Below, in pieces: positions 8,655 through 57,320 of a DNA stretch of 64,000 nt; the stretch's first letter is position 1; every line of letters begins with the position of its first letter. The stretch comes from Bacillota bacterium. Lineage in GTDB: Bacteria > Bacillota > UBA4882 > UBA10575. Where the stretch lies: contig DUOH01000044.1 in assembly GCA_012838955.1 (NCBI GenBank), forward strand, positions 62,001 to 126,000, written 5' to 3'. The notes under the pieces were generated by a model. It was not told where the DNA came from. It worked only from the letters and a program-made list of their open reading frames with translations, and did no database searches. The translations under genes and the position numbers were made by a program.

Positions 8655-8683
8655 TTGTTGAAACCAAAAAAGTATGTTATCAT
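8655..8683 (+). promoter_or_regulatory. Promoter for the preQ1-controlled transporter
   Basis: TTGTTG (8655-8660) and TATCAT (8678-8683) are 17 nt apart. The expected transcription start is about 8689-8691, which is exactly the 5' end of the preQ1 aptamer. The match of position to aptamer start is the main support. Confidence 0.55.
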
Positions 8684-8689
8684 TTCCAT

Positions 8690-8727
8690 CTGCGGTAGTC
8701 CAGCAACCCGCAAAAACAAAACTGGAG
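8690..8727 (+). promoter_or_regulatory. preQ1-I riboswitch
   Basis: P1 is TGCGG (8691-8695) with CCGCA (8708-8712). The loop ends in CAGCAAC and the stem is followed by the A-rich tail AAAAACAAAACT, closely resembling the compact preQ1-I aptamer of Thermoanaerobacter. The Shine-Dalgarno GGAGG (8724-8728) lies directly at the end of the tail, so ligand-stabilised pseudoknot formation would hide it: translational control. The gene it precedes encodes a queuosine-precursor transporter, which agrees fully. Confidence 0.88.
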
Positions 8728-8735
8728 GTTTTTTT

Positions 8736-9425
8736 ATGTCTAAAAAATGTAACACTCAGATAACACCGATCTTCCTCGTTTTGGCTTGCTTCTTTGTAAC
8801 CTCGCTACTCGTCTCGAACATCATCGCCGGGAAGCTAATTACCTTATTGGGAATTACTCTACCGGCCGCTGTCATTCTTTTTCCAGTGACCTATATCTTC
8901 GGAGATATCTTAACCGAAGTCTATGGTTTTAAAAGAACCCTCCTTGTCATCTGGACCGGATTCGGCGCCAACCTCTTTATGGCCTTGGTTTTTATGGTCA
9001 CTATCGCTCTACCATACCCGGAGTTTTGGGCAGGACAACCGGCATACGTCGCTGTTTTGGGGTTCACTCCCCGTGTGGTCACAGCTTCATTGGTCGGCTA
9101 TTTTTTAGGAGAGTTTTCCAACTCTATAGTCTTATCCTGCTTAAAAGTTAAGACACAAGGAAGAAACCTTTGGTTACGGACGCTCGCTTCAACTGTAGTG
9201 GGTGAAGGAATTGATACGGTTATCTTCATCGCCATTGCCTTTGGCGGCGTTATATTCCTGGAAACACTGGCCAGAATGATGCTGGCTCAATATCTTTGGA
9301 AGGTAGCCTATGAGGTGCTTTTAACCCCTCTTACGTATCTGGTGGTAAACTGGGTCAAGAGGAAAGAGGGCTTGGATATTTATGACACAAAAGTCAAATA
9401 TAACCCATTTAGCTTGCAAGTTTAG
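8736..9425 (+). CDS. yhhQ: Queuosine precursor transporter (YhhQ/DUF165 family)
   Basis: The 229-aa membrane protein has about six helices, with family blocks SNIIAGKLI, FPVTYIFGDILTEVYGF and the late TLASTVVGEGIDTVIF. This family imports preQ0/preQ1-type 7-deazaguanine precursors for tRNA queuosine. The start is ATG at 8736, 7 nt after GGAGG; a longer in-frame reading upstream would run through the promoter and the aptamer and is not credible. It is followed 134 nt later by queF, giving a queuosine locus. No terminator is visible between the two genes. Confidence 0.93.
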   Translation: MSKKCNTQITPIFLVLACFFVTSLLVSNIIAGKLITLLGITLPAAVILFPVTYIFGDILTEVYGFKRTLLVIWTGFGANLFMALVFMVTIALPYPEFWAGQPAYVAVLGFTPRVVTASLVGYFLGEFSNSIVLSCLKVKTQGRNLWLRTLASTVVGEGIDTVIFIAIAFGGVIFLETLARMMLAQYLWKVAYEVLLTPLTYLVVNWVKRKEGLDIYDTKVKYNPFSLQV

Positions 9426-9559
9426 CTAATGCCTAGCTAATGCCCTTGTATAGTAATTTAGTATAAAAGCTGAAAAGGACTCAGCGATTAAGTGTGCCAA
9501 TTGGGCAAATTATTTATTTGCGTCGCAGGGTTGCGACGAAACGGAGGGATAGAGAGAAA

Positions 9560-9961
9560 ATGAGCGAGTTGAAGTTTGCCGCTTTAGGAAAGACTGTGCG
9601 TAATCCCAGTAAGAGTTTGGATGTTTTTCCAAAGCCCGCGGGAGTGGTGACTGTGGTCATGGAGAGTGATGAAGTAACCAGTTTATGTCCTGTCACCGGC
9701 CAGCCGGACTGGGAGACGGTTACTATTGAATACGCACCGAAAGATCTTTGTATAGAAAGCAAGAGTTTAAAACTTTATCTATGGAGTTTTCGGGAAGAAG
9801 GGGTCTTTTGTGAAGCTCTAGCCTCGCAAATCGCCAAGGATATCGCAGAAGCCTGTCATCCCCTTTGGGTGGAAGTCATCGTGACACAGAAACCGCGCGG
9901 AGGCATTAAGATAGTGGCTAAGTCAAGAGTGGATGAAGGCAGTGATTCAACTGAGGGATGA
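9560..9961 (+). CDS. queF: NADPH-dependent 7-cyano-7-deazaguanine reductase
   Basis: QueF reduces the nitrile of preQ0 to the amine preQ1, the committed step to queuosine. The protein is the short (unimodal, about 133 aa) form. The catalytic Cys and Asp lie in SLCPVTGQPDW (C43, D50), and ESKSLKLYLWSFR is the family signature. The ATG at 9560 follows ACGGAGGG; the in-frame GTG upstream has no ribosome-binding site. A 7-bp hairpin (CGTCGCA/TGCGACG, 9521-9538) ends just before that site and could affect translation. Together with the transporter upstream this cell can both import precursor and convert preQ0. Confidence 0.95.
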   Translation: MSELKFAALGKTVRNPSKSLDVFPKPAGVVTVVMESDEVTSLCPVTGQPDWETVTIEYAPKDLCIESKSLKLYLWSFREEGVFCEALASQIAKDIAEACHPLWVEVIVTQKPRGGIKIVAKSRVDEGSDSTEG

Positions 9962-10340: not shown

Positions 10341-10367
10341 ACCGCCCGGTAGACGGCGGTTTTTTTG
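10341..10367 (+). terminator. Second rho-independent terminator in the 10 kb gap
   Basis: ACCGCC (10341-10346) pairs with GGCGGT (10355-10360), followed by T7. It stands between the queF terminator and the ABC/GTPase/FeS operon. As no gene is seen between the two terminators, the 10221-10340 stretch may be a small RNA or a leader that ends in premature termination. Confidence 0.7.
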
Positions 10368-10507: not shown

Positions 10508-11287
10508 ATGCTGCATGAACTAACAGTCCTCTCCGGATTTGATAAAACCGGAAAGCGTGAGGAATATGAGAGCATTGTCATTCACGCCGGTGAAACCATC
10601 TCGATTGTGGGACCGACAGGTAGTGGGAAGACCGCCTTTATTACAGACATTGAGTTGCTCGCCCAAGGAGACACCTTCACCAAGCGGAAGATTTTAATTA
10701 ACGGTCAGCCTCCGGGATCTGGAATTCGTAATAATCCAGCCTTGAAACCGATTGCCATGATCACGCAGAATACTAAGTGTTTCGCAGATCTGACCGTGGA
10801 AGAATTCCTAAAGATACACGCCAGGGCCAGAGGGATATATTCTTCAAAAATCATCGATGAAACTATTGCCTTAGCCAATAACTTCACAGGAGAAAAGATA
10901 CATCGAGATCACCGGGTCACCATTTTGTCCGGAGGTCAAACCCGCTCGCTGTTGATTGCGGATGCCATCTTAATCGGGGCGGCGCCGGTCATCCTCTTGG
11001 ATGAGATTGAAAACGCCGGTATCTTTAAGCAGGAAGTGATGGAAATCATCCAGGACACTGGGAAAATTATCATCTTTGTGACACATGATCCGGTGATCGC
11101 CCTGCATACTCAGAAACGAATTATTATGGAAAACGGCGCGGTGAAGGCCGTTCTCGTCCAAAATGAGTTAGAGGTCTTTGCCGCACAGAGGTTGAGTGAT
11201 CTTGATCGCAAAATCGGGGCAATCAGGGAAGAATTACGTGCCGACCGGGTAATCACTAGGGAATTAATGAATTTGAAATTCGCGTAG
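10508..11287 (+). CDS. Stand-alone ABC-type ATPase, first gene of a putative metallo-cofactor operon
   Basis: This 259-aa protein is an ABC ATPase: Walker A GPTGSGKT (35-42), signature LSGGQ (140-144), Walker B VILLDE (161-166) and switch His H193 in VTHD. There is no membrane domain and no permease gene nearby. The C-terminal about 50 residues form a charged helix. The two following genes encode a HypB-type GTPase and an iron-sulfur protein, so this is unlikely to be a transporter subunit. Soluble ABC ATPases acting on metalloenzymes are known, such as the component A2 protein that helps activate methyl-coenzyme M reductase. A role in reductive activation or cofactor insertion is inference. 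Confidence 0.85.
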   Translation: MLHELTVLSGFDKTGKREEYESIVIHAGETISIVGPTGSGKTAFITDIELLAQGDTFTKRKILINGQPPGSGIRNNPALKPIAMITQNTKCFADLTVEEFLKIHARARGIYSSKIIDETIALANNFTGEKIHRDHRVTILSGGQTRSLLIADAILIGAAPVILLDEIENAGIFKQEVMEIIQDTGKIIIFVTHDPVIALHTQKRIIMENGAVKAVLVQNELEVFAAQRLSDLDRKIGAIREELRADRVITRELMNLKFA

Positions 11288-11302
11288 GAGGTAGTGAAAA
11301 AG

Positions 11303-12013
11303 ATGAAACTACTGGTAGTAGCAGGACCGCCTTCTGCCGGTAAAACCGCACTCATAAAACAGATTATCCGGCATTTCCATCATCAACTAAGGATCGCCTT
11401 TCTCAAAATCGATGTTGTAAAAGCATATGAAGACGAGGAACTGCAGCGCGAGTTTGGGATTCCCACGAAAAAAGTGTATTCCGGGGATTTATGTCCGGAT
11501 CACGCCGGTGTGATGATTCTCGGCGATGCGGTGGAGTGGGCGGAAAAAACAGGGGCCGATTTGTTTATTATGGAAAGCGCCGGTCTTTGTCTACGATGCT
11601 CTCCCTATCTTACTCAAGGATTGGGAGTAGTGGTGCTCAGTTCGATCTCGGGAATTCATACTCCGGAAAAGATGGGCGCCATGGTGAGTTTAGCCGACAT
11701 TGCTGTGGTCACCAAGATTGACCTGGTGAGCCAGGCGGAGAGGGAGGTATTGATCCAAAAGATCCGGGATCTTCACCCCAAGATACTGCTGATGGAGACG
11801 AATGCCCTGCAAGGTACTTCCTTGCAACGGCTTTATAGTGTAATTTTGGAATCTGAAGAGATCCGCCAGGCTGATCTGATGCTAAAAGGTAATCCTCCGA
11901 TCGGAACTTGTACGATCTGTGTTGGCAAGAAAGAAGTCGGATGGAGACACCATTTCGGCGTTGTAAAGAAGCTGGACGGGGCCATCGCGGATTATCTGTA
12001 TCGAGGTGAATAA
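11303..12013 (+). CDS. HypB/CobW-type P-loop GTPase with metal-binding Cys/His motifs
   Basis: This is a 236-aa P-loop GTPase of the HypB/UreG/CobW group: Walker A GPPSAGKT (8-15) and the base-recognition motif TKID (137-140). Potential metal ligands are numerous: C64/D66/H67, ESAGLCLRC (91-99), CTIC (203-206) and HH (216-217). HypB and UreG deliver nickel to hydrogenase and urease, and CobW proteins deliver Co or Zn. No hydrogenase, urease, CODH or cobalamin gene is in the window. ATG at 11303 is preferred (GGAGG 11 nt upstream); the GTG at 11294 is too close to that site. The next gene begins 2 nt after its stop. Confidence 0.85.
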   Translation: MKLLVVAGPPSAGKTALIKQIIRHFHHQLRIAFLKIDVVKAYEDEELQREFGIPTKKVYSGDLCPDHAGVMILGDAVEWAEKTGADLFIMESAGLCLRCSPYLTQGLGVVVLSSISGIHTPEKMGAMVSLADIAVVTKIDLVSQAEREVLIQKIRDLHPKILLMETNALQGTSLQRLYSVILESEEIRQADLMLKGNPPIGTCTICVGKKEVGWRHHFGVVKKLDGAIADYLYRGE

Positions 12014-12014
12014 A

Positions 12015-12671
12015 GTGAAACAGATAGCCACTTGGAATCCTCCGGGGAAAAACTGTGGACTGTGCGGGGAAGAAGACTGTCGCAGCTTTCTTCTACGAGT
12101 GAACGATGGCGGTGGTAAGGAATACGCAGACTGCCCGTATTATAGCCCGAAAATCGGAGAAAAAGTGAAATACAGTGATCATCCGCTACTCGCTGAATAT
12201 GGAAGAACAGACATACTCCAACATCCGTATGATTTTGTTCTGTCCCCTTTACCTGGTGAGGTCTCGGCACGTAAGATTGTTTTACCATTCCGTCCGGATT
12301 TGGTGGAAAGGATCAAGATTCAAACCGGGGATTATGTCTTAGGACGGCCGATGGGAGCTGGTTGTCCTATCCCTCATATTCTGCAAGTAATAGAAGCGGA
12401 TTTGGTAACAGGCGTCTTAACTACTTGGGTGGTGGGACCAAAATATGCGAGAGAGGGAAGAGTGAAAGATGTAAAGGCTTATCATATGTTGGGGTTCGAG
12501 GGAATAGCCACCTGCCTCCGAAAAGTGCCGGAGTTTGGCTGCAGAGTCACTTTTTTGCCGGGTTTTTGCATGATGTCTTTGAACCATACGGGTCTGGTCA
12601 ATATGATCCTGGAAAAAGAGGATGGAATTCATCTACGGCTGGAAGATATCCGGATTTTAGCCGGTAAGTAG
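12015..12671 (+). CDS. 4Fe-4S protein with CFeSP-like N-terminal cluster domain
   Basis: Residues 1-42 hold C14-x2-C17-x4-C22 and C40-P, the cluster motif seen at the start of the corrinoid iron-sulfur protein large subunit and in electron-transfer subunits of the Fe-S family PF04060. The following about 175 residues are not recognised; they include a conserved-looking GAGCPIPHI and a Cys near FGCRVTFLPGFC. GTG at 12015 follows GAGGTG by 6 nt; the GTG at 12006 is also possible. It is tightly coupled to the GTPase gene and followed by hairpins. A cluster that passes electrons to an ATP- or GTP-driven partner would suit the operon. Confidence 0.8.
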   Translation: MKQIATWNPPGKNCGLCGEEDCRSFLLRVNDGGGKEYADCPYYSPKIGEKVKYSDHPLLAEYGRTDILQHPYDFVLSPLPGEVSARKIVLPFRPDLVERIKIQTGDYVLGRPMGAGCPIPHILQVIEADLVTGVLTTWVVGPKYAREGRVKDVKAYHMLGFEGIATCLRKVPEFGCRVTFLPGFCMMSLNHTGLVNMILEKEDGIHLRLEDIRILAGK

Positions 12672-12695: not shown

Positions 12696-12723
12696 AAGAA
12701 GAGTGTCCGGGGACGCTCTTCTT
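12696..12723 (+). terminator. Hairpin after the FeS gene
   Basis: AAGAAGAG (12696-12703) pairs with CTCTTCTT, with an inner GTCC/GGAC extension. There is no immediate T-run, but ATTCTTTTT follows some 10 nt later. It probably contributes to transcript end formation. Confidence 0.5.
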
Positions 12724-12862: not shown

Positions 12863-13912
12863 TTATTGAGTTTGACCCGGGATGCAAATCATCCTGCCGA
12901 CCTGGAGATTGTTGGGATCCAGACCGGGGTTGGCGGCTAGTATAGCAGCGACTGTAGTACCGAAACGCTGAGCTAAGGCAAAGAGCGTATCTCCGGCTCT
13001 GATTGTATAGAGTGTTCCACCAGGGCACCCTACAGGTGGAGCAGTCGGGATACAGATTTGTTGTCCAATCATTAGTCGATTCGGATCCACTCCGGGGTTC
13101 GCGGCTGCCAACTGTTGTACAGTCACATTAAAACGCGCTGCTAAACTGAAGAAGGTATCTCCGGCTCTGATTGTATAAAGGAACCCTCCTGGACAGGGAC
13201 CCGGCCCCGGAGCTTGTGTAGGGATACAAATCTGTTGACCGATCTGTAGTCTATTGGGGTCAACTCCCGGGTTGGCATTGATTAATTGCTGGACTGTCAC
13301 ATTAAAGCGGGCGGCTAAGCCAAAGAAAGTGTCGCCTGCCCGGATGGTGTAGAAGAAGCCGCCGGGGCACTGAGCAGGCGGGGCGGTAGGGATACAAATC
13401 TGTTGACCGATCTGTAGTCTATTGGGGTCAACTCCCGGGTTGGCATTGATTAATTGCTGGACCGACACATTAAAGCGGGCGGCTAAGCCAAAGAAAGTGT
13501 CGCCTGCCTGGATGGTGTAGAAGAAGCCGCCGGGGCACTGAGCAGGCGGGGCAGTAGGAACACAGATCTGTTGCCCGATTTGAAGTCTGTCCGGATCCAC
13601 TCCTGGGTTAGCTTGAACTAGCGCATCTACGGAGATGTTAAAACGATTAGCAATGGAAAAGAAGGTATCACCGGCTCTGATCGTATAGAGGAATCCGCCT
13701 GGACACGCTCCTGGTCCGGGCGCCACCGGAATACAGATTTGTTGGCCGATCTGAAGATTGTTGGGATTTATGCCCGGATTGGCGTTTATAATCGCCTGTA
13801 CGGTCGTATTGAACCGTGAGGCGAGGTTGAATAAGGTGTCTCCTGCCCTGATGGTGTAGACGGTTCCACCCGGACAGGTTACCTGGCTGGTAAAGACAGT
13901 CTGTATGCTCAT
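12863..13912 (-). CDS. Six-LysM-repeat cell wall or spore-coat-type protein
   Basis: The 349-aa protein consists almost only of six LysM modules of about 56 aa. Each begins with CPGG followed by the module core ([10 protein letters not shown], then [19 protein letters not shown]), separated by short Pro/Ala linkers. LysM binds N-acetylglucosamine chains of peptidoglycan. The paired Cys in each module (CPGG and QICIP) may form a disulfide. There is no classical signal peptide, and similar clostridial proteins are attached to the wall or spore coat by unknown means. ATG at 13912 follows GGAGG by 10 nt; an ATG at 13921 is too close. Near-identical DNA repeats show recent internal duplication. 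Confidence 0.88.
13221..13556 (-). repeat. Two near-identical 168-bp tandem units inside the LysM gene
   Basis: Positions 13221-13388 and 13389-13556 differ at only a few bases (for example TGTC/CGAC and CCCGG/CCTGG), whereas the other LysM modules differ much more. The unit length of 168 bp equals 56 codons, one LysM module, so the copy number can change without shifting the frame. Confidence 0.9.
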
Positions 13913-14102
13913 AAGTATCATTCCTCCATTAGAAGGTTATGCTCTAGGATATGTAGATAAAGCACGGATCGGGACAAGGCCCGAAGCACATTTTAGGACA
14001 GCAGTTTCTGAGACGTTATTTCCCCCCGGTAACTCGGGAAAGAGGTTTTTGCCAAAATAAAGCGAAAAAATTAAACCTAGTGTCTACGGTAGGGGTGAAA
14101 TA

Positions 14103-17811: not shown

Positions 17812-18034
17812 GAAATCCACATTGCTTACCACCGACGCGAAGAACGCACTGAGTATTCTGTATTGAACGGCTTTAGTTGAACTAAGGACCTTGAGATAAA
17901 TAGTATTGACTATTGAGATCCGATTCTATATACTACAAATGGACCTAGTTTTCAAGTTTCGGTCCACAGGTTGATGCTCTTTGCCCAAACTATTAGTAGA
18001 CATATCGTATGATGAATAATTATGATAATTTTAT

Positions 18035-18101
18035 CCAATATAATTTAGGCGATATGGGCCTAAAGTCTCTACCGAGCAACCGTAAATTGTTCGACTATTG
18101 G
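18035..18101 (+). promoter_or_regulatory. Guanine-type purine riboswitch aptamer
   Basis: P1 is CCAATA (18035-18040) with TATTGG (18096-18101). P2 (TTAGGC/GCCTAA) encloses GATATGG. J2/3 reads GTCTCTACC, L3 is CCGTAAA, and J3/1 is GACTAT. The specificity base is C in GACTA, which selects guanine/hypoxanthine over adenine. The downstream gene is a purine permease, as expected for this class. Confidence 0.93.
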
Positions 18102-18165
18102 AGTATTTTGACTGTTGGAGCCTGACATTGATTTTTGGCGCGGGCAAATTACTCATTGAATTTAC

Positions 18166-24541: not shown

Positions 24542-25411
24542 TTAGAGGGCGGCGATGTATTCTTTCTTCACCCAACCCCGTTTTCCGTCAAGTGTTTTAA
24601 TTAAGCGCCATTCATCATGTTCCTCCAAGATCAGCAGGCGAGCGCCTTCATTCAGGTGAAAATAGAGGGTTCCCTCTTCATCAGGTGCATAGCGTACTTC
24701 TCCGCCAGCCTGGATAGCCACGCCCAGCTTTTGGTGGTGGTGGTGATAGGTGAGGCTGGTCAGGGAAGAAAGGAAGACTAGGAGAACCAGTAAGCCAAGG
24801 GATAGTGGGCGGATGGTACGGAGGAGAAGGCAACGCCAATCGTCGGTTTTATCACGGGTATAGCCGGTGGCAAGCAGTGTTTTGACCGCTCCTGCCAGCA
24901 TGATCAAGCAAAAGGTTACTGCGGTATAAATAAAGAGTTTTTCCAGAGAGCAGAGGGAAGACAGAAAAAGACAGTAACAGGTCCACCCGTGGACTTCCCC
25001 TTCCTCCACCTCTTCGGTGACGAAAGAAAGATTTGCCTTTAAGTCGGCGTCCTGTGGCATGAATCTTCTTGCCTTTTCGTAGTATAGAATGGCCATGCCC
25101 TTTTTCCCCAGTTTATAATAGGTGTTTCCCAGATTATAGTAGAGGTTGCCGCTTTCCAACCCCTGTTCGATCAGTTTCTCATAGCTTTCACGGGCCGCTT
25201 GGTAATTTCCTTCGTCATAATAGGTATTACCCGCGAAAAAGAGCGCATAAGCGCGTCCGCGTAACTGCTCGTCTGCGGTGTTTGTTTTTTCCTCCGCAGC
25301 CAACCCTGGAGATGATCTCATTGAAAAAATCGAGAAGAACAGCGCCAAGAGGAGCAAATACCGAGCGATCCTGTAGTAAACCATAGATCTATCTTGATCG
25401 GCTTTCATCAT
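24542..25411 (-). CDS. batE: BatE-like protein: TPR, membrane helices and SH3 domain
   Basis: This last gene of the Bat operon encodes 289 aa. A signal/anchor helix comes first, then TPR units (around GNTYYDEGNYQAARESYEKL and GNLYYNLGNTYYKLGKKG), two membrane helices, and a C-terminal bacterial SH3 domain (around GARLLILEEHDEWRLIK). This is the BatE plan. The start ATG at 25411 overlaps the batD stop (ATGA) and follows GGAGGG. The SH3 end may bind peptidoglycan outside the membrane. Confidence 0.82.
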   Translation of the reverse strand: MMKADQDRSMVYYRIARYLLLLALFFSIFSMRSSPGLAAEEKTNTADEQLRGRAYALFFAGNTYYDEGNYQAARESYEKLIEQGLESGNLYYNLGNTYYKLGKKGMAILYYEKARRFMPQDADLKANLSFVTEEVEEGEVHGWTCYCLFLSSLCSLEKLFIYTAVTFCLIMLAGAVKTLLATGYTRDKTDDWRCLLLRTIRPLSLGLLVLLVFLSSLTSLTYHHHHQKLGVAIQAGGEVRYAPDEEGTLYFHLNEGARLLILEEHDEWRLIKTLDGKRGWVKKEYIAAL

Positions 25412-27240
25412 TCTTCCCTCCGTTCTCCGTTGTTTGCTACCGTCCACTTCTGCGTACGCGCTTTACGCGGACGTTCTTCAGCTGCTAAGTGGCTAACGAT
25501 TTTATATAATTTCCCCCAGAGAGCTTCCACTTCTTTTCGATCGATGGTGGCGGCGGTAAATTGGTAGTAGTCATAACTACTGAAGAAATCTTTTATTTCC
25601 TCCAGAATCTCTCCGGTCACACCCAAAGCTTCCAAGTCCGTGCAGACCTCTACGGTGATCCCCGCCGGTGAAAGATTGAATTTTCCGCCGAGATACTCCC
25701 GTAACAAGCGGTGCAAAGCCGTAAGCAACTGCTGTGGATGATCCTTTGCCATCCTCTCTTTAATCTCGCCCAATTCCTTTTCAGCGGCTTTTTGGGCCCG
25801 TAAAGCTCGCCCATGCGCTGTATCAGAGGATAACAGTTCTTGACGCCTTCGATAGCAGAGGGTAAAGACGAAAAGTAGAACCGGGAGGAGTTGCCAGCCC
25901 CAAAACCAGAGATTTTTATAAATTTCCGTACCCTGTTGGCGTAAATTTCCAGGCTGGGTTTTGATATAAACCAGATCCCTTCCGGTAAGCGCTGTCACGT
26001 CTTTTTTTGCTGAAGGCGGCATGTTTCCGGAAAAATCCGGATTGGGCAGGACTGTGATGGGGAGCGGTTCAGTCCAGACTCTCCGGTATTCCTTGGCTTC
26101 CGGGTCAAAGTAAGAGAGAGAAAGCGCTGGGATGGCCTGTACTTCCGGATGCAAGGGGATGACTACTTGTTCATAAAGGACTTCCTGGCGGTCGGCTTCC
26201 GGATTAGGCTGGTCTATTCTCTGTGGATCATAGATTTTAAACCCGGCATCTGCCGGAAAAGAGGGTGGTCTGGTTGAGGTGAGATTTCCTTCTCCGGTGA
26301 TGGAGATCCGCACAGTAAGCGGATCTCCTGCCTGCACAGTGAGGGGAGAGGCAGTGAGCTTAAGATTGAAGTGACCAATGCCCCCGGAAAAGTCGTTGGG
26401 TCGCTGAGTGGCCGGTAAAGGCAATACCTCCAGAGCCAGGTGGTTTGTTCTTAAGGTAACCGGTCTTTTTTCATACCGCTCGAAAAGGTTAAAAAAGGGG
26501 TCGTTGCTGATTGGTCCTTCAATAACATTACAACTCAGTTCGACCGGACCTAGCGTAAAGGCGCCGGTTTTCACCGGAGTCACGGTCCGGGAAAAGGTGA
26601 GGATCTGGTAAGGCATACCATTTATAATCTTCTTTTGTTCAGTAGGTTTCGTCGCCTCACTGACGATTACTTCCGCTTGTGGGGGTATAGTGGGGTAGGT
26701 GAGATCTTGTACGGAAACATTACCGATATATAATCTGACTTGAATCGGTAAACTTTCCCCCAAAAACAACTGAGTTTTGGCTGCTGTCAGCTCCAAGAAG
26801 AGCGCTTTGTCTTTTTGCTTCTCCGGAACCAGTTGATCGGCCGTTTGTGGCTGGTCGTTGACGGTCAGTTCCAGACTATTGGTGGTAAGTTCTTCCTTTC
26901 CACAGGATAGTGTATAGGGACCAAGTTGGTAGACGCCGCTCTTCTTTGCTTGCACGGAATAGTTATATGTAATCTGTACGGTTGATACGCCGTTAACGAA
27001 CTGGCGCTGGGTAAAAGGGCCGAGATACTTGATGAGCAATCCAGGTTGCTGTGGGATTTCCGGACGGGAGGTTAACAATGATCCATAAACGGTAATGCGT
27101 ATCTGAGTAATGGCCCCGATTTCCAGTTGGTTGTGATCAATGGTTAATTCTGCGGATAAGGCCAGAACAGGCGAGGGACACCACCAAAAAGCGCACAGAA
27201 CTAAGATGAGCAGGACACTAGCTTTGCGGAGATATGACAT
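25408..27240 (-). CDS. batD: BatD-like membrane protein with repeated extracytoplasmic Ig-like domains
   Basis: The 610-aa protein starts with a signal peptide (ending near VLA), followed by a long exported region of several beta-sandwich-like domains. A membrane helix lies near residue 450 (WGWQLLPVLLFVFTLC), and the cytoplasmic tail is helical with DHPQQLLTALHRLLREYL. This matches BatD (oxygen-tolerance protein) of the Bacteroides-type Bat operon. ATG at 27240 follows GGAGG by 7 nt. In the MoxR/Bat system BatD is a scaffold with the VWA proteins at the membrane; its exact role is unproven. Confidence 0.85.
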   Translation of the reverse strand: MSYLRKASVLLILVLCAFWWCPSPVLALSAELTIDHNQLEIGAITQIRITVYGSLLTSRPEIPQQPGLLIKYLGPFTQRQFVNGVSTVQITYNYSVQAKKSGVYQLGPYTLSCGKEELTTNSLELTVNDQPQTADQLVPEKQKDKALFLELTAAKTQLFLGESLPIQVRLYIGNVSVQDLTYPTIPPQAEVIVSEATKPTEQKKIINGMPYQILTFSRTVTPVKTGAFTLGPVELSCNVIEGPISNDPFFNLFERYEKRPVTLRTNHLALEVLPLPATQRPNDFSGGIGHFNLKLTASPLTVQAGDPLTVRISITGEGNLTSTRPPSFPADAGFKIYDPQRIDQPNPEADRQEVLYEQVVIPLHPEVQAIPALSLSYFDPEAKEYRRVWTEPLPITVLPNPDFSGNMPPSAKKDVTALTGRDLVYIKTQPGNLRQQGTEIYKNLWFWGWQLLPVLLFVFTLCYRRRQELLSSDTAHGRALRAQKAAEKELGEIKERMAKDHPQQLLTALHRLLREYLGGKFNLSPAGITVEVCTDLEALGVTGEILEEIKDFFSSYDYYQFTAATIDRKEVEALWGKLYKIVSHLAAEERPRKARTQKWTVANNGERREE

Positions 27241-27254
27241 TCTAGAACCTCCAT

Positions 27255-28100
27255 TTACCAATCTTTCTCCGGTTGTTTACTTACGCCCTGATTCGCTTCG
27301 TCATTATTCTGGGGCGTATAATATTCTTCCTCCATTTTCGTCAGGTCAAGAAGGTATACGGCCTCCTCTTTACTCATTCCTTCTTCACCAGTGGCGTTTT
27401 TTTCAGGCGCAGATGATTGATCTTGTAGAGCTGCGGAGGGGGAGTCATGGTCGTCCGTTCGGTCCCGGCTGTCTTCTTCATCGTTTTTTCCCTGGTTATT
27501 TTGGTTTTTGTCGTCATTTTGCGTCTGACCCGGTTCTTCTCCGGCTTCGTCCGGCCTCTTTTCATCCTGGAGTTGCAGATGGAGTTTGGTTAATTCGTAA
27601 TTGTATTTGGCGTCCGGATCCGAAGCATCGATCAGCAGCGCCTTTTGGTAATGGTCTAAAGCGGCTTCAAGGTATTGCCGTCTCTGCGTATCTGCCAGTT
27701 TTCCCTCCTCCGCTAACTTAAAATTGGTATTTCCCAGATGATACCGGTATTTATAGGTTAATTCCTGCGGCCCGCGGGAGGAGAGAGGTGATCCGTTTTC
27801 CGGCTTTTCCAGTTTAGCCAGGCCGTCTGTGAATACTTCTAAAGCTTGGGTAAAGCGATGATTCTCATAGGTGGAAAGGGCCAAGTTGTGGAGGATGTGC
27901 GGAGAATCCGGATGCTTGACGGCCAGATCCGCATAGATCCTGTTTGCTGCCTGTACTCTGCGTTCATTGGTAAGAAGCGCGTTAGCTCTGGCCATCCGCA
28001 TGCTATCCCCCCAGACCTGAAAGACCAAGACCAGCAGGAAGCAGAGGATGACCAAGACGAATAGAACCATTTTTACCTGTGGATTCAGACGCAAGACCAA
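27255..28100 (-). CDS. batC: BatC-like TPR protein with acidic, disordered tail
   Basis: It has an N-terminal membrane helix (MVLFVLVILCFLLVLVF), then TPR units around residues 50-175 (SPHILHNLALSTYENHRF and YRYHLGNTNFKLAEEG), then a low-complexity Asn/Asp/Glu/Gln-rich tail (about 185-245). That is the usual plan of BatC in Bat operons. It sits 14 nt upstream of batD. The tail is likely unstructured and may mediate binding within the complex. Confidence 0.8.
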   Translation of the reverse strand: MVLRLNPQVKMVLFVLVILCFLLVLVFQVWGDSMRMARANALLTNERRVQAANRIYADLAVKHPDSPHILHNLALSTYENHRFTQALEVFTDGLAKLEKPENGSPLSSRGPQELTYKYRYHLGNTNFKLAEEGKLADTQRRQYLEAALDHYQKALLIDASDPDAKYNYELTKLHLQLQDEKRPDEAGEEPGQTQNDDKNQNNQGKNDEEDSRDRTDDHDSPSAALQDQSSAPEKNATGEEGMSKEEAVYLLDLTKMEEEYYTPQNNDEANQGVSKQPEKDW

Positions 28101-28123
28101 CCCTCCTTGCCTAAAACGATGAA

Positions 28124-29134
28124 TCAGGTATGAGCTTGTTCTTTTCCGCTGACCAAGATAAATTCGGCGCCTAAAACGAGCAAAGCGAAGAAGAGGGGGA
28201 TTTGGTAACGGTTGATGTATTTTTTCTCCATGGAACTATGGAGATCCGCCTGTTCCAGATGGGCCAGTTCGGTTTGGTAGAGTAGGTCCAAACCCAATAC
28301 TGGACCGGTTCCTTTAAAATAAGCCCCTCCTCCGGCCTTCGCGATCTCCTTTAATGCTCCTTCCTGGAGGACGGTTTTGACCACATGGCCGCGGTCATCC
28401 TTTAAATATAAGGTGTTGCCTTTTTCATCCCGTACGGGAATGAGTTCCCCTTCCTGACTGCCAAGGCCGATGGTGTAGATAGTGATCCCTTCTTCCTGCG
28501 CCTTCCGGGCTTGGGCCAGAGGATCACCTTCATGATTCTCCCCGTCGGTAATGAGGATCAGGATCTGATGCCCGTTTCCCCCGGATTGAAAGGCCGCTCT
28601 GGCCGTGTCAATCGCCTTCCCGATCGCTGTTCCGCCTCGGGGCAGGGTATATACGTCCAAAGCATCCAAGGCGATTTGAAAAGCATTGTAATCCATGGTT
28701 AGGGGGGCTTGTAAAAAACCGGTTCCGGAGAAAGCAACCAAACCAACTTGATGGCCGGGAATTTGTTTCAGAAAATCCCTGATTGCTAGTTTGGCCCGTT
28801 CTAGCCGGTTGGGACGGAGATCAGTGGCAAGCATACTTTTTGAGGTGTCCAGGGCGATAATTATCTCCAGTCCACGACTGCGTACCTCTTGCCACCGGTA
28901 CCCCCATTCCGGGCCCAGCAGGGCCAGGATTAAGAAGCAGAGTCCACAAATTTTCAAGAACATTGCCTGGCGGTCTTGGCGTAATCCTCGCAGGTTGGTA
29001 TATTTTCTTAATAAAGCCGGGTTGGCGAAGGCGTTTAAAGCCTTTGCCTTGCTCTTTTGGGTCCAAGCATAGAAGCAGACTAGAAAAAGGAGGAGTACAA
29101 AGAGCACACTGTAAGAAGGACTTATAAACCTCAT
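28124..29134 (-). CDS. batB: BatB-like von Willebrand A protein
   Basis: The 336-aa protein has two N-terminal membrane helices, a VWA domain and a C-terminal helix. The metal-ion-dependent adhesion site is complete: DTSKS, a Thr in RGGTAIG and ITDGENHEGD. VWA proteins pair with MoxR-type AAA+ ATPases, which here is the first gene of the operon. ATG at 29134 overlaps batA by 4 nt and follows GGAG. A longer in-frame start is inside batA and is not needed. Confidence 0.87.
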   Translation of the reverse strand: MRFISPSYSVLFVLLLFLVCFYAWTQKSKAKALNAFANPALLRKYTNLRGLRQDRQAMFLKICGLCFLILALLGPEWGYRWQEVRSRGLEIIIALDTSKSMLATDLRPNRLERAKLAIRDFLKQIPGHQVGLVAFSGTGFLQAPLTMDYNAFQIALDALDVYTLPRGGTAIGKAIDTARAAFQSGGNGHQILILITDGENHEGDPLAQARKAQEEGITIYTIGLGSQEGELIPVRDEKGNTLYLKDDRGHVVKTVLQEGALKEIAKAGGGAYFKGTGPVLGLDLLYQTELAHLEQADLHSSMEKKYINRYQIPLFFALLVLGAEFILVSGKEQAHT

Positions 29135-30132
29135 GGCAGTCTCCTTAATACCGTTCTTCTGAAGACTTCTTCCAACAGGAGCAGAGTCAGAGCGCAAATG
29201 ATCAAAACCGGATACAAGTCTTTATACTCATGATAGTGCCGCATTTCGATTACAGTCTTATTCATCTGATCAATCTGAGCAAAAGTTTCTCGTAGAGACA
29301 CGGTATCTATAGCAGAAAAATAACGGCCTCCGGTTAGCTCAGCAATTTTTTGCAGTAAGGCTTCGTCCAGATCAATTCGGACATTTCGATAAACCTTCCT
29401 CCCCCATAGATCAGTGGTTGGGTAGGGGACCGGTCCTTTGGAACCCGCCCCAATGGTGTAGATGGTAATTCCCAAGGCCTGCGCAGCTTCGGCTGCGGTT
29501 AAAGGATGTATGTGGCCGGCGTTGTTGACTCCGTCGGTCAAAAGAATCACTACTTTACTCTCGGCTTCTGACTGACGGAGGCGGTTGATAGCAGTGGCCA
29601 GCGCCGAACCGATGGCGGTTCCGTCCTCAACCATCCCGGCTTGCACCTGGGCCAAGCGGGTGACGGTGAAGTTCTTGTCCCACGTCAGCGGGGAGAGGAT
29701 GTAAGGTTTTTCTCCGAAGATGACGATCCCCAGCCGGTCGTGGCGCCGGTTCTGGATGAAATTATCAGTCACTTCTTTCACAATCTCCAGGCGGTTTCGG
29801 CGTCCGCCCCTGACCTCAAAATCCTCTGCAAGCATGCTGGTGGAGACATCAAGCACCAGGATGAGATCGATGCCTTCTTTTCTCTCCCAGGATTCTTTCA
29901 GCCCTACTTGCGGACGGGCTAAAGCCAGAATAATCAGGATTAAGGCGAAAAACTGCAACCAAGGGAGGAGAGGCAGTAGGCGAATCCGCCAAGAGGAAGG
30001 AAGCGCCTTGAAGTGGCTAAGGCTGGAATAACCGATGCTTACCTGCTTCTTCCCTCTTTTTTTGCCTGTACGAAGCCAGAGGAAGAGCAGAACCGGGATT
30101 AGCGTTAAGAACCATGGATTACGAAAGATCAT
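29131..30132 (-). CDS. batA: BatA-like von Willebrand A protein
   Basis: This is the paralogue of the next gene with the same plan: an N-terminal helix pair, VWA with DVSTS, DGTAIGSAL and LTDGVNN, then a C-terminal helix (LYPVLIICALTLLLLEEV). In Bacteroides the BatA/BatB pair is linked to aerotolerance, and in other bacteria to envelope integrity. It overlaps the previous gene by 14 nt and the next by 4 nt, so translation is tightly coupled. Confidence 0.88.
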   Translation of the reverse strand: MIFRNPWFLTLIPVLLFLWLRTGKKRGKKQVSIGYSSLSHFKALPSSWRIRLLPLLPWLQFFALILIILALARPQVGLKESWERKEGIDLILVLDVSTSMLAEDFEVRGGRRNRLEIVKEVTDNFIQNRRHDRLGIVIFGEKPYILSPLTWDKNFTVTRLAQVQAGMVEDGTAIGSALATAINRLRQSEAESKVVILLTDGVNNAGHIHPLTAAEAAQALGITIYTIGAGSKGPVPYPTTDLWGRKVYRNVRIDLDEALLQKIAELTGGRYFSAIDTVSLRETFAQIDQMNKTVIEMRHYHEYKDLYPVLIICALTLLLLEEVFRRTVLRRLP

Positions 30133-31261
30133 GCTTGTCGCTCCCTTGATCCGCCTGGGCGCCGGTTACACGCGCCTGGGCTGTTTCTTCTTCCTCTTTT
30201 TCCTCCTTAGTCTCTATAATGATGTTCCAGGCCAGCTCCCAGGCGGACTCTGCCTGGGAGACACTGGGGTAATATTGAGCGAATTTGACCAAATCAGCCG
30301 AAGCAAGCAGATCGGCCAGGCTTTTCCGGTGTTTTTCTTCCAGACTACCGCAATCCCGCCAGCGGTGAAGAGCGCAGAGAAACTCCTCTGTCGTCATTTC
30401 CCTGGCCTTAATCGAGAACCGGCGCTCAAAGTATTCCCGCAGGCACTCTGTTAACTCGCTGTAATATAGTTTAAATTGGCGTTTGCCGAGATAATTCCCT
30501 TCCTTAATCTCTTCCAACCGGCGCAAAGCAATGAGGTGTGCTGCTTCTGTGGCCGGGGGTAGTTCAGCAGAAGCATGGGCGGTGCTTTTCTTTTTTCTTC
30601 TGTAGATCAGCCAAAGCAGGCAAAATAGGATGAAGATAAGAAAGAAGGTGATAACCTTGGACAGCAGAAGGTAGTCTCCGGGAAGGCTCACCGGATCCTT
30701 GGCCGGTTGAATCGGTAGAGCCAGTAATTCTGCTCTGGTTTTATTCTCCGGCAAGACTGAGCTAATTTCCAGCTTGGGGCCGGGAATGGTTAACACTTGT
30801 CTCACCGGGTCTTGGCCGGTCCCGGCCTTCGTATATTCGATCCTGGTGGCGGGAAGGGAAAAGACACCTACCTCCCAGCCGACGAGGGTAAAATCAACGT
30901 ATTTTTTTTCACCGCCGCGTAGACGTTGTTTGCCGGGTTTTTCTGTGCTTAAAACCTCCAAGACGTTCCCTTCCGGTAAAGAGAGGCCGGGCAGGTGAGG
31001 AGTAGTCTCTGCTCTGCTCTCCACTTCCAGTCGGATTCGGATCTTGTCCCCTATATAATAGGGGGGAGGGTTTAACATGATAAATCTGGCTTTAATCTCT
31101 TCGTTCTCCGTCAAGCACAGCGGAGGTGGAAATATTCGTCTTCGCGTAGACGGACATGCGACCATAAGCAAGAATAGAGTAAGTAAAACGAGGAGGAATA
31201 CGGTAATCCGGGAAGACAAGACTAGAGACGCCAAAGGGTGCGCGGATTTTTTGCGTGTCAT
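30119..31261 (-). CDS. Membrane protein of the Bat operon (DUF4381-like tail)
   Basis: The 380-aa protein has an N-terminal helix, an exported beta-rich region with the ADP-like phrase PPPYYIGDKIRIRLEVESR (similar in style to BatD domains), a second helix near residue 215 (ITFFLIFILFCLLWLIY), and a cytoplasmic helical tail (FKLYYSELTECLREYFERRF) like the DUF4381 family that accompanies VWA proteins. Its role is likely scaffold-like. It is 15 nt downstream of the DUF58 gene and overlaps batA. I am confident of the context, less of the family name. Confidence 0.75.
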   Translation of the reverse strand: MTRKKSAHPLASLVLSSRITVFLLVLLTLFLLMVACPSTRRRIFPPPLCLTENEEIKARFIMLNPPPYYIGDKIRIRLEVESRAETTPHLPGLSLPEGNVLEVLSTEKPGKQRLRGGEKKYVDFTLVGWEVGVFSLPATRIEYTKAGTGQDPVRQVLTIPGPKLEISSVLPENKTRAELLALPIQPAKDPVSLPGDYLLLSKVITFFLIFILFCLLWLIYRRKKKSTAHASAELPPATEAAHLIALRRLEEIKEGNYLGKRQFKLYYSELTECLREYFERRFSIKAREMTTEEFLCALHRWRDCGSLEEKHRKSLADLLASADLVKFAQYYPSVSQAESAWELAWNIIIETKEEKEEEETAQARVTGAQADQGSDKHDLS

Positions 31262-31276
31262 CTCTCCACCTCCGGT

Positions 31277-32158
31277 CTATCCGATTCTGCGTTCTCTTTT
31301 CAGAAAGAGTTTTTGCAATGGTTCCAGATACGAGTAACCCGTGGAGACAGTGATATAGTCGATCTTATTCTTTCTGAACAGCCTCTCCAGTTTTTTGCGT
31401 TGGACAAAGACTCGGGCCTGAATCTCCGCTCTGACCTTTTTCTCTGACGTATCAATCATTGTCCTGTATCCGGTCTCCAGATCCTGCAAACAGAGTAAGC
31501 CTATCTCCGGCAGACTCTCTTCTCTGGGGTCTTCGATCCGAATGGCGATCACATCGTGGCGTCTCTTCAATCCTTGCAATGCTTTTTCAAAGCGGGTGTC
31601 AAAGAAATCCGAGAGGATAAAGACGATACTGCGCCGCTTCAAGATGGTATTCAGGTAGCCTAAAGCCGCAGCCAGATCGGTTTTCTTTCCGGACGGGCGG
31701 TAGCCAAGGATCTCCCGGATTACCCGCAAAACATGCCTCCTTCCTTTTTGGGGAGGAAGATACTTCTCACAGCAGTCGCTAAAAAGTAGCAATCCCACTT
31801 GATCATTGTTTTTGATGGCCAGGAAAGAAAGGAGAGCGGCGATCTCCGCTGTTAAATCTGATTTTAGCGCATTAACACTTCCAAAGTATTGAGAGGCGCT
31901 CAGATCAACCAGCAGCATTACCGTGAGTTCGCGTTCTTCAACATACCGTTTTATATAAGGCTTTCCGGTCCGGGCTGTTACATTCCAGTCGATGGCGCGG
32001 ATGTCATCTCCCGGCTGATAAAGGCGTACCTCCTCAAATTCAATGCCGACACCCTTAAATACACTGGCGTATTGCCCGCAGAGCACACTATTGATTAGTC
32101 GATCGGTTTTGAATTGAATCTTTTTTACTTTTGCCCAGATTTCTTTGGCTGTCGGCAT
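31277..32158 (-). CDS. DUF58 domain protein (VWA-like)
   Basis: The DUF58 signature is plain: EFEEVRLYQPGDDIRAIDWN followed by ARTGKPYIKRYVEERELTV and the VWA-like start LLVDLSASQYFG. Almost all moxR loci carry this gene next to the ATPase. ATG at 32158 follows GTGAGG by 7 nt; a TTG two codons earlier is weaker. The gene is 52 nt downstream of moxR. Confidence 0.9.
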   Translation of the reverse strand: MPTAKEIWAKVKKIQFKTDRLINSVLCGQYASVFKGVGIEFEEVRLYQPGDDIRAIDWNVTARTGKPYIKRYVEERELTVMLLVDLSASQYFGSVNALKSDLTAEIAALLSFLAIKNNDQVGLLLFSDCCEKYLPPQKGRRHVLRVIREILGYRPSGKKTDLAAALGYLNTILKRRSIVFILSDFFDTRFEKALQGLKRRHDVIAIRIEDPREESLPEIGLLCLQDLETGYRTMIDTSEKKVRAEIQARVFVQRKKLERLFRKNKIDYITVSTGYSYLEPLQKLFLKRERRIG

Positions 32159-32210
32159 TTTCAAACCTCACTCCATCTTTGCCGGTCAGGTCTTTTCCCG
32201 CGCAAACAAA

Positions 32211-33200
32211 TCAAGGGACCTCCACTCCGTTTAAGATCCGGTCGATTAGGTCCTCCACAGTGAGCTCTTCCGCTTCCGCCTCATAGGTGATGATGATCCG
32301 GTGACGCAATATATCATGAGCAATGACTTTGATATCGTTCGGAACCACGTATCCTCGTCCCTGAATAAAGGCATAGGCCTTGACGGCCAGCGCAAAACTG
32401 ATGGTGGCCCGGGGAGAGGCGCCGTATTCAATGTACGGAGAGAGGTTCAAGGCATAATCCTCCGGTTTTCTGGTGGCCATGACGATATTTACTATGTATT
32501 CCTTGATTTTGGGGTCCATATAGATCTGATCCACCACACCTCTTGCTCTTAGAATATCCTGAGGAGAGATTACCGGGGTTACTTCCATCTTCTTCTCTGT
32601 GCGCGCCATCTTCTCCATAATCTTGATTTCCTCTTCTTTACTGGGATAACCAAGTTTCAATTTTAGTATAAATCTGTCCAGTTGCGCTTCGGGTAAAGGA
32701 TAAGTGCCCTGTTGTTCCAGGGGATTTTGCGTAGCCAAAACCATAAAAGGTTCACCCAAGGGAAAAGTGTTTTCACCGATGGTCACCTGTTTTTCCTCCA
32801 TCGCTTCCAACAGAGCGCTTTGCACTTTGGCGGGCGCTCTGTTTATTTCATCCGCCAAAATGATCTGGGCGAAGATCGGTCCTTTTTTGGTAATGAAGTC
32901 TCCGGTTTGCGGGTTATAGATCAGAGTGCCAAGCAGATCAGCTGGTAACAGATCCGGGGTAAACTGGATCCGTTGAAAATCCGCTTTTATGGTGGAGGCC
33001 AGGATTTTGACGGCGAGAGTTTTGGCCAGACCGGGCACGCCCTCCAAGAGAATATGTCCATTGGCTAGAAGTCCGATGAGAAGACCGTTAATCAACTTTT
33101 CCTGGCCGACCAGGACTTTTTCCATTTCTTCCTTTATTTGCGAAACAAAACGGCTCTGCGTGTTAATGGCCTCTGTAATCGCGGATAAATTATCCAGCAT
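32211..33200 (-). CDS. moxR: MoxR-family AAA+ ATPase
   Basis: The 329-aa ATPase has Walker A GVPGLAKT, Walker B ILADEINRAP, sensor-1 TQNP and the arginine region QLDRFILKL, typical of MoxR (APE2220/MRP groups). MoxR proteins act as chaperones with VWA partners for enzyme or envelope-complex assembly. It is first in the eight-gene unit. The start is set at ATG 33200, 8 nt after GGAGG; two earlier in-frame ATGs overlap or abut that site. A promoter-like pair is seen about 120 nt upstream. Confidence 0.92.
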   Translation of the reverse strand: MLDNLSAITEAINTQSRFVSQIKEEMEKVLVGQEKLINGLLIGLLANGHILLEGVPGLAKTLAVKILASTIKADFQRIQFTPDLLPADLLGTLIYNPQTGDFITKKGPIFAQIILADEINRAPAKVQSALLEAMEEKQVTIGENTFPLGEPFMVLATQNPLEQQGTYPLPEAQLDRFILKLKLGYPSKEEEIKIMEKMARTEKKMEVTPVISPQDILRARGVVDQIYMDPKIKEYIVNIVMATRKPEDYALNLSPYIEYGASPRATISFALAVKAYAFIQGRGYVVPNDIKVIAHDILRHRIIITYEAEAEELTVEDLIDRILNGVEVP

Positions 33201-33322
33201 GAGCATAACCTCCATACTTTAACTGAATTGGTCCGTCATTGACTAGAGCGCGAATGGGCAAAAGGCGGCTGTGCGCAGTCTGTAATGTATGGTGACAGAT
33301 CGTAGCAGCGCCTCCTCTATTA

Positions 33323-54856: not shown

Positions 54857-57076
54857 TTACATGCGTTCATGAATCGTCCGCTCAATTACTTCCTGTTGTT
54901 GTTCTTTGCTTAACTTGGTGAAGTGCACCGCATAGCCGGATACACGAATAGTCAGATTTGGATATAACTCGGGGCGCTTCATAGCGTCAATCAATGTCTC
55001 CCTGCTGTAAACATTGATATTGACGTGATGGCCGTGGGCTCCAAAGTATCCGTCCAGTAGGCGGCTGAGGTTTTTCACTCGTTCGTCTGTGTTCTCTCCT
55101 AAAGCCCGCGGGGTAATGGAGAAGGTATAAGAAATTCCATCCCTGCAGATTTCATAGGGTAGTTTGGCCACAGAGCGCATAGACGCGATGACTCCATTTT
55201 TTTCCCGGCCATGCATGGGGTTGGCGCCCGGAGCAAACGGTTTTCCTGCTTGGCGGCCGTCCGGGGTCGCGCCGGTCTTCTTTCCGTATACCACATTTGA
55301 GGTTATTGTTAGGATCGAGAGAGTAGGCACGGCATTTCTATAGATGGGCTGTTTGGCCAGGGAGGCGGAGAAGTGTCTGAGCACTTTAACAGCTAGCCCG
55401 TCCACGCGATCATCGTCATTGCCAAAGCACGGGAAGGCGCCCTCAATTTCAAAACTCTCGGCTATTCCCTGTTCATTTCGGATCGGCTTTACCCGGGCAT
55501 AGCGAATTGCGCTTAAAGAATCGGCTACTACGGATAGGCCGGCTACCCCAAAAGCCATATGCCGATGGGGATTGGAATCAATCAAGGCCATCTGGGCGCG
55601 TTCATAATTGTATTTATCATGCATGTAGTGGATACAGTTCATGGTGCGGCTGTATAAAACCGACAGCCAGGTTAAGACTTTTTCGTAGTTGTTCCATACT
55701 TGATCCCATTCCAAGTATTCTCCGTCCAGTTTGGGAAGGTCCAGAACTTGTTCTCCGGTTTTCTCGTCTTTTCCTTGATTAATCGCTAAGAGTAAAGCTT
55801 TGGCCAGGTTGACCCGGGCTCCGAAGAATTGCATATCATGACCGGTCCGGGTAGCTGAAACGCAGCAAGAGATGGCATAGTCGTCTCCGAAGATTGGACG
55901 CATCAGTTCATCGTTCTCAAATTGCAGAGCGGAAGTTTCAATGGCCAACTCTACGCTGAAATCCCGGAAAGCTTGAGGCAGCCGCGGGCTCCAGAGAATG
56001 GTCAGGTTCGGTTCTGGAGATGGCCCCAGATTCCGAAGAGTCTGTAACCACCGGTAATCGGTTTTAGTCACCAACGGGCGCCCGTCTTCCCCCATCCCGC
56101 CTAAGGCCTCTGTGGCCCAGACTGGATCACCGGCGAAGAGTTCATCATACTCCGGAGTGCGCAGATGCCTGATTAACCTAATCTTAATTGCTAATTGATC
56201 GATTAATTCCTGGGCGAATTCCTCAGTGATCTTCCCTTCCGCCAGATCCCGTTGAATATAAATATCCAAAAACGGACTGGTATGTCCGAGGGACATGGCC
56301 GCTCCGTTCTGTTCCTTCAATCCCGCAAGATAAGCAAGGTATAACCATTGTACTGCTTCATGGGCGGAAGCGGCCGGACGGGAAAGATCGCAACCGTAGG
56401 ATTGACCCATTTCAACCATGCGTTCCAAAGCACGAATCTGGTCGGCGATGTCTTCCCGTAGATGGATGGTAGTGTCATCCACATTATCCAAGGAATATAA
56501 ATCTTTTCTTTTTTCTTCAATCAGATAATTAATGCCATAGAGGGGAACTCTACGATAATCTCCGATTAGGCGTCCGCGTCCATAAGCATCAGGTAACCCG
56601 GTAATCAGTCCCAGGTGTCTTGCTTGTCTCATCGCCGGAGTATAAATCCGGAAGATGGCCTCATTCTGTGTCCGGCGGTATCTGGTGAAAATCTTTTTCA
56701 TGCCGGGATCAGGTTCCACGCCCCTGGCTTGACAGGCGGCTTCCACCATCCGCCAGCCACCCCACGGGTTCACCATCCGTTTTAATGGTTTGTCGGTTTG
56801 TAGCCCAACAATTAATTCCCTGTTTTGGTCGATGTAGCCCGGACCCCAGGCTGTGATGCCTGCCACTCGCTTGGTATCAATCTCCAATACGCCGTTGGCT
56901 TTTCGCTCTTCCTCCATCAACGCTTGGCATTTATCCCAGAGACCTTTGGTACGCTCTGCAGGACCTGATAGAAAGGTGGGAACATCATAATAAGGCTCGT
57001 AATTTTCCCGGACAAAATCTGAGACATCAATACGCTGTCGCCAAGCAGTCCCCTTAAAGGAACGCCATGGATCCAT
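54857..57076 (-). CDS. pflB: Pyruvate formate-lyase
   Basis: PflB cleaves pyruvate with CoA into acetyl-CoA and formate, the core fermentation and one-carbon step in anaerobes. The catalytic pair C404-C405 (AISCCVSA) and the radical glycine G714 in RVSGYAV are intact. The 739-aa length is normal. ATG at 57076 is preferred (AAGGG about 10 nt upstream); an earlier start at 57106 lacks a site. The leader carries a ZTP riboswitch with its terminator, so formate production is coupled to folate one-carbon status. Confidence 0.96.
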
Positions 57077-57107
57077 ATTCACCAATCCCTTCATCATTAG
57101 TGACAAT

Positions 57108-57146
57108 AAAAAAACCGTCTGGACAATTTTATTTTGCCCAGGCGGT
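57108..57146 (-). terminator. ZTP-riboswitch terminator in the pflBA leader
   Basis: On the minus strand ACCGCCTGGGCAA pairs with TTGTCCAGACGGT (one C-A mismatch, one G-U), followed by T7. The 5' arm is the conserved CCGCCTGGGC of the ZTP aptamer, so aptamer folding and terminator folding exclude each other. Confidence 0.88.
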
Positions 57147-57207
57147 CGACATTTACTTATCCGTACTCCATCGTGGTTACGCCCACATATCCGCCAGTCA
57201 TACGGAT
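57136..57207 (-). promoter_or_regulatory. ZTP (pfl-motif) riboswitch controlling pflBA
   Basis: On the minus strand the outer stem is ATCCGTA (57201-57207) with TACGGAT (57159-57165). Inside are TGACTGGCG, the hairpin GTGGG-CGTA-ACCAC and GATGGAGTACGG. After the linker comes CCGCCTGGGCA. These are the conserved elements of the ZTP/ZMP riboswitch. ZTP accumulates when 10-formyl-tetrahydrofolate is short; binding should free the operon from termination. The gene family it regulates here (PFL) makes formate for that folate pool. Confidence 0.92.
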
Positions 57208-57320
57208 GCTTTTATTTTAAAAGCAAATAGTGGTAGAGTCAAGATCTTTTTAAAGGACTTATAAAGTAGCTGAGGAATTGAGAATAAATCACCTCTTTGA
57301 GGATGAGGGGGGAAGTCCTA

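Follow-up and report, generated by a model that had tools for sequence, protein, structure and literature searches.

A compact operon of two NTPases and an Fe-S protein

The window, that is, the whole stretch of 64,000 nucleotides that was analysed, encodes a soluble ABC ATPase, a HypB/UreG-type GTPase and a COG2000-like [4Fe-4S] protein in three consecutive genes, hereafter called the trio (Table 1). The tight packing described in the original prediction is borne out by the reading frames, all of which are found at the listed positions on the forward strand. The ABC ATPase and GTPase genes are spaced by 6 bp, and the GTPase and Fe-S reading frames overlap by 8 bp in the window sequence. The three genes form one operon. 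Judging from homologues, the true start of the GTPase may be the ATG at 11303.

Table 1. Genes of the trio and adjoining sequence features in the window.
Feature	Position	Strand	Basis or remark
Terminator-like hairpin 5' of the trio, probably the end of the preceding unit	10341..10360	+	
Soluble ABC ATPase gene	10508..11287	+	ORF listing, Pfam, alignment
HypB/UreG-type GTPase gene	11294..12013	+	ORF listing, Pfam, alignment
[4Fe-4S] protein gene, COG2000-like	12006..12671	+	ORF listing, Pfam, alignment
11-pair inverted repeat just 3' of the Fe-S gene, a possible operon end	12696..12723	+	By eye, absent from the scan list

Neither an ABC permease (by reading frames and Pfam) nor coenzyme M or sulfonate genes were found in the flanks of the trio within the window. 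No Rfam match was obtained near the trio, and riboswitch control of the operon was dropped.

Several other features of the window were recorded. On the 5' side of the trio, a gene for a Vut_1 (YhhQ-type) transporter is followed by queF (8655-9961, forward strand), likely a queuosine-precursor pair, and just after the trio a protein of about six LysM-like repeats is encoded on the opposite strand (12863-13921, reverse strand). A purine riboswitch (18016-18117, forward strand, 87.6 bits) lies 5' of a permease-like gene at 18263. A ZMP/ZTP riboswitch (57129-57211, reverse strand, 60.9 bits) lies 5' of a large reading frame (54857-57106, reverse strand), which resembles pyruvate formate-lyase and is followed by an activase-like gene. 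Inspection of the reading frames by eye also revealed a MoxR/DUF58/VWA/BatD-like cluster at 24542-33215 on the reverse strand.

Conserved residues of the three proteins

The ABC ATPase comprises 259 residues with a single ABC domain (Pfam ABC_tran, 55.8 bits). Its catalytic set consists of the Walker A motif GPTGSGKT, Q87, LSGGQTR, the Walker B motif LLDE with E166, and H193. In the alignment of 59 ABC sequences of the trio, the Walker A motif, Q87, LSGGQ, E166 and H193 are all invariant, and the protein appears to be catalytically complete. The residues E-N-A-G-I following the Walker B motif (DEIENAGI) are unusual and equally invariant in the 59 sequences. Given that the ABC fold is like that of transporter ATPases, the protein could in principle serve a transporter with its permease gene at another site, its present neighbours being incidental. 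However, the region after Walker B is atypical, and the ABC gene is followed by those of the GTPase and the Fe-S protein in almost all genomes. Moreover, a conserved permease is absent from the relatives' loci as well as from the flanks in the window, in keeping with the soluble, permease-free ATPase that had been predicted, and we regard the transporter reading as extremely improbable. A ZnuC-like ABC gene present in 11 loci was also considered and rejected, as these genes encode generic ABC ATPases and vary in both distance and strand.

The ABC protein had further been likened to the MCR activation component A2 (AtwA). The likeness is one of principle, namely a soluble ABC ATPase in methanogen cofactor chemistry, and it did not hold up in the details. 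A2 has two ABC domains, whereas the trio protein has only one, no specific similarity between them was found, and the trio protein occurs in clostridial bacteria, in which MCR is not known to occur.

The GTPase matches Pfam cobW (CobW/HypB/UreG) with 50.6 bits and, by its sequence, is a HypB/UreG-like GTPase of the SIMIBI type. Besides the TKxD motif, it contains the invariant motifs C67-P-D-H70, C99-x-R-C102 and, at the C-terminus, C206-T-x-C209. Residues C67, D69, H70, C99, C102, C206 and C209 are identical in all 49 aligned GTPases. The C67/H70 and C99/C102 pairs align to the metal-site region of HypB and are putative metal ligands, which agrees with the earlier HypB-type assignment. The metal motifs CTIC and ESAGLCLRC that had been pointed out are indeed conserved, while of the two histidines in the supposed HH motif the second (His 220) alone is nearly invariant. 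The protein thus resembles the nickel-insertion GTPases HypB and UreG in its SIMIBI G-domain and in its CxxH and ExxGxxxxC regions, which align with the HypB metal site. On the other hand, it falls below the equivalog cut-offs of both HypB (TIGR00073, 70.9 versus 121.2 bits) and UreG (TIGR00101, 31.5 versus 204.2 bits), it bears the additional C-terminal CTxC motif, and the hydrogenase or urease context is absent. The CobW-related selenoprotein family NF041053 was likewise discarded (26 versus 180 bits).

The Fe-S protein matches Pfam FeS (PF04060, 26.9 bits), and its N-terminal [4Fe-4S] motif consists of C17, C20, C25 and C43. Among 46 Fe-S proteins, C43, C120, H124, C188 and H194 show no variation, and C17, C20 and C25 hardly any. 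This pattern suggests that C120, H124, C188 and H194 constitute a possible Cys2His2 metal site beside the one [4Fe-4S] site. The resemblance of the N-terminus to CFeSP was recovered (E 2.7e-5), confined to about 40 residues. The match to the large subunit of CFeSP (the CO dehydrogenase corrinoid/Fe-S protein) is limited to profile positions 8-54 and reflects the shared [4Fe-4S] motif, whereas the remainder of the trio protein is unmatched and the corrinoid and TIM-barrel parts are absent. The first structure model was weak (pLDDT 75), and the addition of distant homologues raised the value to 85.8, with a beta-rich C-terminal domain, which contains C120, H124, C188 and H194, predicted at high confidence. 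No fold match for the model was found in the PDB or in the viral library at E<=0.001.

Conservation of the trio and its genomic neighbours

Genome-by-genome sampling covered the window's phylum and one archaeal phylum. Among 149 genomes of the window's phylum, 14 genomes from 8 families carry the trio, and two additional weak matches were to the [4Fe-4S] motif alone. An independent scan of 84,980 species genomes yielded 42 loci, a figure that under-counts distant carriers because exact peptide patterns were used. Nearly all of the 42 loci and the sampled genomes have the genes in the order ABC-GTPase-FeS on a single strand. The exceptions are one locus without the GTPase gene (L051) and two loci, near a contig end, with only the GTPase and Fe-S genes (L050 and L010). 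Given this near-constant order and strand, the conservation of the trio as a unit is far beyond chance. The three genes thus stay together across genomes, as the original prediction had supposed, and neither a constant association with a permease nor a scattering of the genes was seen.

The bacterial carriers include Thermincola, Pelotomaculum, Desulfotomaculaceae and heliobacteria, and the archaeal carriers, at about 52% identity, belong to Methanomethylophilus and Methanoplasma. In the same archaeal phylum as these two genera, deeper archaeal relatives were also found. A quick tree places the methanogen sequences as sister to those of the bacteria, with the sequences of the loci L137, L138 and L139 outside.

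In the archaeal locus L139, the gene order is cysteate synthase, ABC, GTPase, FeS, ComD and ComE, with MMP16 convergent, and the genes between cysteate synthase and comDE overlap or nearly touch. In three other archaeal loci (L057, L058 and L140), the trio is followed directly by MMP16 and cysteate synthase, and in L058 and L140 ComDE and then UPF0280 come next. In the genome G217, the trio lies apart from the coenzyme M genes, and cysteate synthase scores above the cut-off elsewhere in the genome. In bacteria, the trio adjoins comA and comB, the genes for phosphosulfolactate synthase and phosphatase. ComA, or ComA with ComB, is encoded immediately upstream and in the same orientation in L024, L029, L030, L031 and L039, with 33-36 bp between the ComB and ABC genes in L024 and L030, and ComA lies 5-6.4 kb downstream of the trio in L028, L036, L038 and L046. 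These ComA-linked loci represent more than one clade. In the window's own genome, comA is located on another contig (C49), away from the trio. The claim that no known substrate enzyme adjoins the trio therefore stands for the window, but fails elsewhere, where comA/comB or cysteate synthase, comDE and MMP16 are the neighbours. The neighbourhood of comA itself is conserved in the phylum (L090-L100 and L148-L184) and includes an MFS transporter, a DUF441-like protein and a membrane protein of about 92 residues, which possibly serve sulfolactate export.

The trio had been presented as undescribed-looking, which holds only in part. In their report on the coenzyme M synthase MMP16, Chadwick et al. 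(2025) state, in the portion concerning these genes, that the coenzyme M biosynthesis genes are frequently accompanied by those for an ATPase, a Ni-binding GTPase and a COG2000 Fe-S protein, and they call the role unknown (PMC12068725). The two sets agree in comprising three adjacent genes for the same protein types beside coenzyme M genes in methanogens, and our COG2000 label for the Fe-S protein expresses this correspondence, made through the matching operon context in L057, L058 and L139. That portion of the report deals with archaea, whereas here the trio is found in bacteria as well, a link to comA/comB is described and a role in sulfite supply is proposed. Furthermore, the locus in the window is not colocalised with coenzyme M genes, in contrast to those of its archaeal relatives. 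The bacterial link of the trio to comA/comB is new here.

A probable role in sulfonate biosynthesis and a proposed supply of sulfite

Co-occurrence was assessed among the 149 genomes by Fisher tests, which ignore kinship and were post hoc, ComA having been picked after the linkage was seen. On this basis, ComA is present in 13 of the 14 trio genomes as compared to 46 of the 135 others (p=2.3e-5). The association persists within the SpoIVA-positive spore-formers (p=2.4e-4), and spore formation was accordingly rejected as a confounder. The frequency of CODH does not differ between genomes that have the trio and those that lack it (6/14 versus 61/135, p=1), and neither CODH nor the corrinoid-type partner that had been suggested is supported as a target; this reading was rejected. 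Two genomes are exceptions and count against a dedication to sulfonates: in G059 the trio is present with ComA and cysteate synthase undetected, and the fragmentary genome G279 also has the trio and neither enzyme. The trio very probably serves sulfonate biosynthesis.

One alternative, which is closest to the original idea, assigns to the trio the maturation or reductive activation of a metalloenzyme in the sulfonate or thiol pathway. The coenzyme M-forming sulfurtransferase of the COG1900/MMP16 family would be an example, and the Fe-S protein would act as a carrier or electron donor and not as the enzyme. The position of the trio directly 5' of MMP16 in L057, L058 and L140, the metal-chaperone type of the HypB/UreG-like GTPase and the enrichment of HcyBio (COG1900-type) in trio genomes (10/14 versus 41/135, p=0.005) are consistent with such a function. 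However, HcyBio is missing from 4 of the 14 trio genomes, the majority of HcyBio genomes lack the trio, and the copy in the window's genome lies in a homocysteine set at a distance from the trio, with a score of 140.5, well below the MMP16 cut-off of 363.95. These observations dismiss MMP16/HcyBio as an obligatory partner, and maturation of such an enzyme seems rather unlikely to us. The homocysteine set of the window's genome (L089, 6273-8770) consists of adjacent DUF39/HcyBio, NIL-ferredoxin and COG2122-like genes, a sulfide-based route to homocysteine.

The linkage to ComA/ComB in bacteria and to coenzyme M genes in archaea would also suit an action on a downstream sulfonate (sulfolactate or sulfopyruvate), or a non-canonical route to coenzyme M in bacteria. 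This is quite unlikely, as ComDE (sulfopyruvate decarboxylase) exceeded the cut-off in none of the 149 bacterial genomes, which also eliminates bacterial coenzyme M synthesis by the classic route, and ComA was detected in none of the five archaeal genomes tested. Since the tested trio archaea lack ComA, sulfolactate is not a common intermediate. Both ComA and cysteate synthase use sulfite as a substrate (PMC12713407, PMC5695019), and with no ComDE above the cut-off in the bacteria, sulfite is the reactant that the two enzymes have in common.

The best explanation of the whole, to which we assign a probability of roughly 0.4, is that the trio is a sulfonate module of strict anaerobes that most likely makes sulfite available to C-S synthases. 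Observed are the genes, their constancy as a unit, their genomic linkage and co-occurrence, and the conserved ligands; the scheme that follows is inferred throughout, from the role in sulfite supply and the choice of metal to the direction in which transfer runs and each catalytic step. In this scheme, the HypB-like GTPase would bind a metal ion and load it onto the Fe-S protein, while the ABC ATPase would drive a conformational or assembly step during the loading. The Fe-S protein, with its [4Fe-4S] cluster and a second site formed by C120, H124, C188 and H194, would then form or deliver sulfur at the +4 level. The sulfite would reach enzymes that add it to a C3 phosphate. In bacteria the recipient would be ComA, on the way to sulfolactate, and in archaea it would be cysteate synthase, on the way to coenzyme M.

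It is doubtful that the sulfite is formed by the Fe-S protein itself. Equal reserve applies to the broader proposal that the trio is an unrecognised anaerobic sulfite-forming system, in which an NTP-driven Fe-S/mononuclear-metal protein would oxidise reduced sulfur to sulfite without oxygen or sulfate activation, and which would be common to methanogens, where it would serve coenzyme M, and to spore-forming clostridial relatives, where it would serve sulfolactate. By our reasoning, low-potential acceptors make the oxidation of sulfide to sulfite an uphill reaction, and this would account for the presence of two NTPases. The same reasoning would apply if the trio activated or energised a separate sulfite reductase that turns sulfide into sulfite by running in reverse. 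In 2018, a paper on anaerobic methanotrophs called the in situ source of sulfite unclear, and named a small sulfite reductase acting in reverse as a candidate source for coenzyme M (PMC6286981). Nevertheless, a sulfite reductase adjoining the trio was not noticed in any of the loci that were read, and we consider this variant very unlikely.

The supply of sulfite by the trio is consistent with the distribution of sulfate-activating enzymes. Among the ComA-positive genomes, ATP sulfurylase occurs in 1 of the 13 with the trio and in 20 of the 46 without it (p=0.02, by the same post hoc test). The single genome with ComA, the trio and ATP sulfurylase is the window's own, in which comA is not adjacent to the trio; this speaks against the sulfite role, as do the 26 ComA-positive genomes with neither the trio nor ATP sulfurylase and the absence from the trio of a domain known to make sulfite.

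Sulfite-providing modules adjoining ComA have a precedent. In the trio-free genome G128, ComA, a PAPS/APS reductase and ATP sulfurylase are encoded within about 4.5 kb. The Bacillus subtilis genes yitA, yitB and yisZ encode ATP sulfurylase, PAPS reductase and APS kinase. Both yitCD and yitBA-yisZ, which have consecutive gene numbers, were inferred to act in phosphosulfolactate synthesis (PMC517825). The trio resembles these sulfate-to-sulfite partners of ComAB in its placement, but the partners are ATP sulfurylase and PAPS/APS reductase, which are unrelated to the trio proteins. In two other trio-free genomes, a sulfonate-type ABC importer was seen by eye beside ComA. At another locus (L150, 7647-7949), a 100-residue protein like the N-terminal piece of ATP sulfurylase (PUA_2) is encoded beside comAB and a sulfonate-type ABC importer, and may be a broken gene or a separate small protein.

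To make coenzyme M or sulfolactate, a cell requires sulfur at the +4 level, yet sulfide is what many of the strict anaerobes considered here live on. A conserved trio tied to both of the sulfite-using entry enzymes is a candidate for this gap in the source of sulfite that can be tested by knock-out, and the linkage gives a pathway to three protein families that were previously without one.
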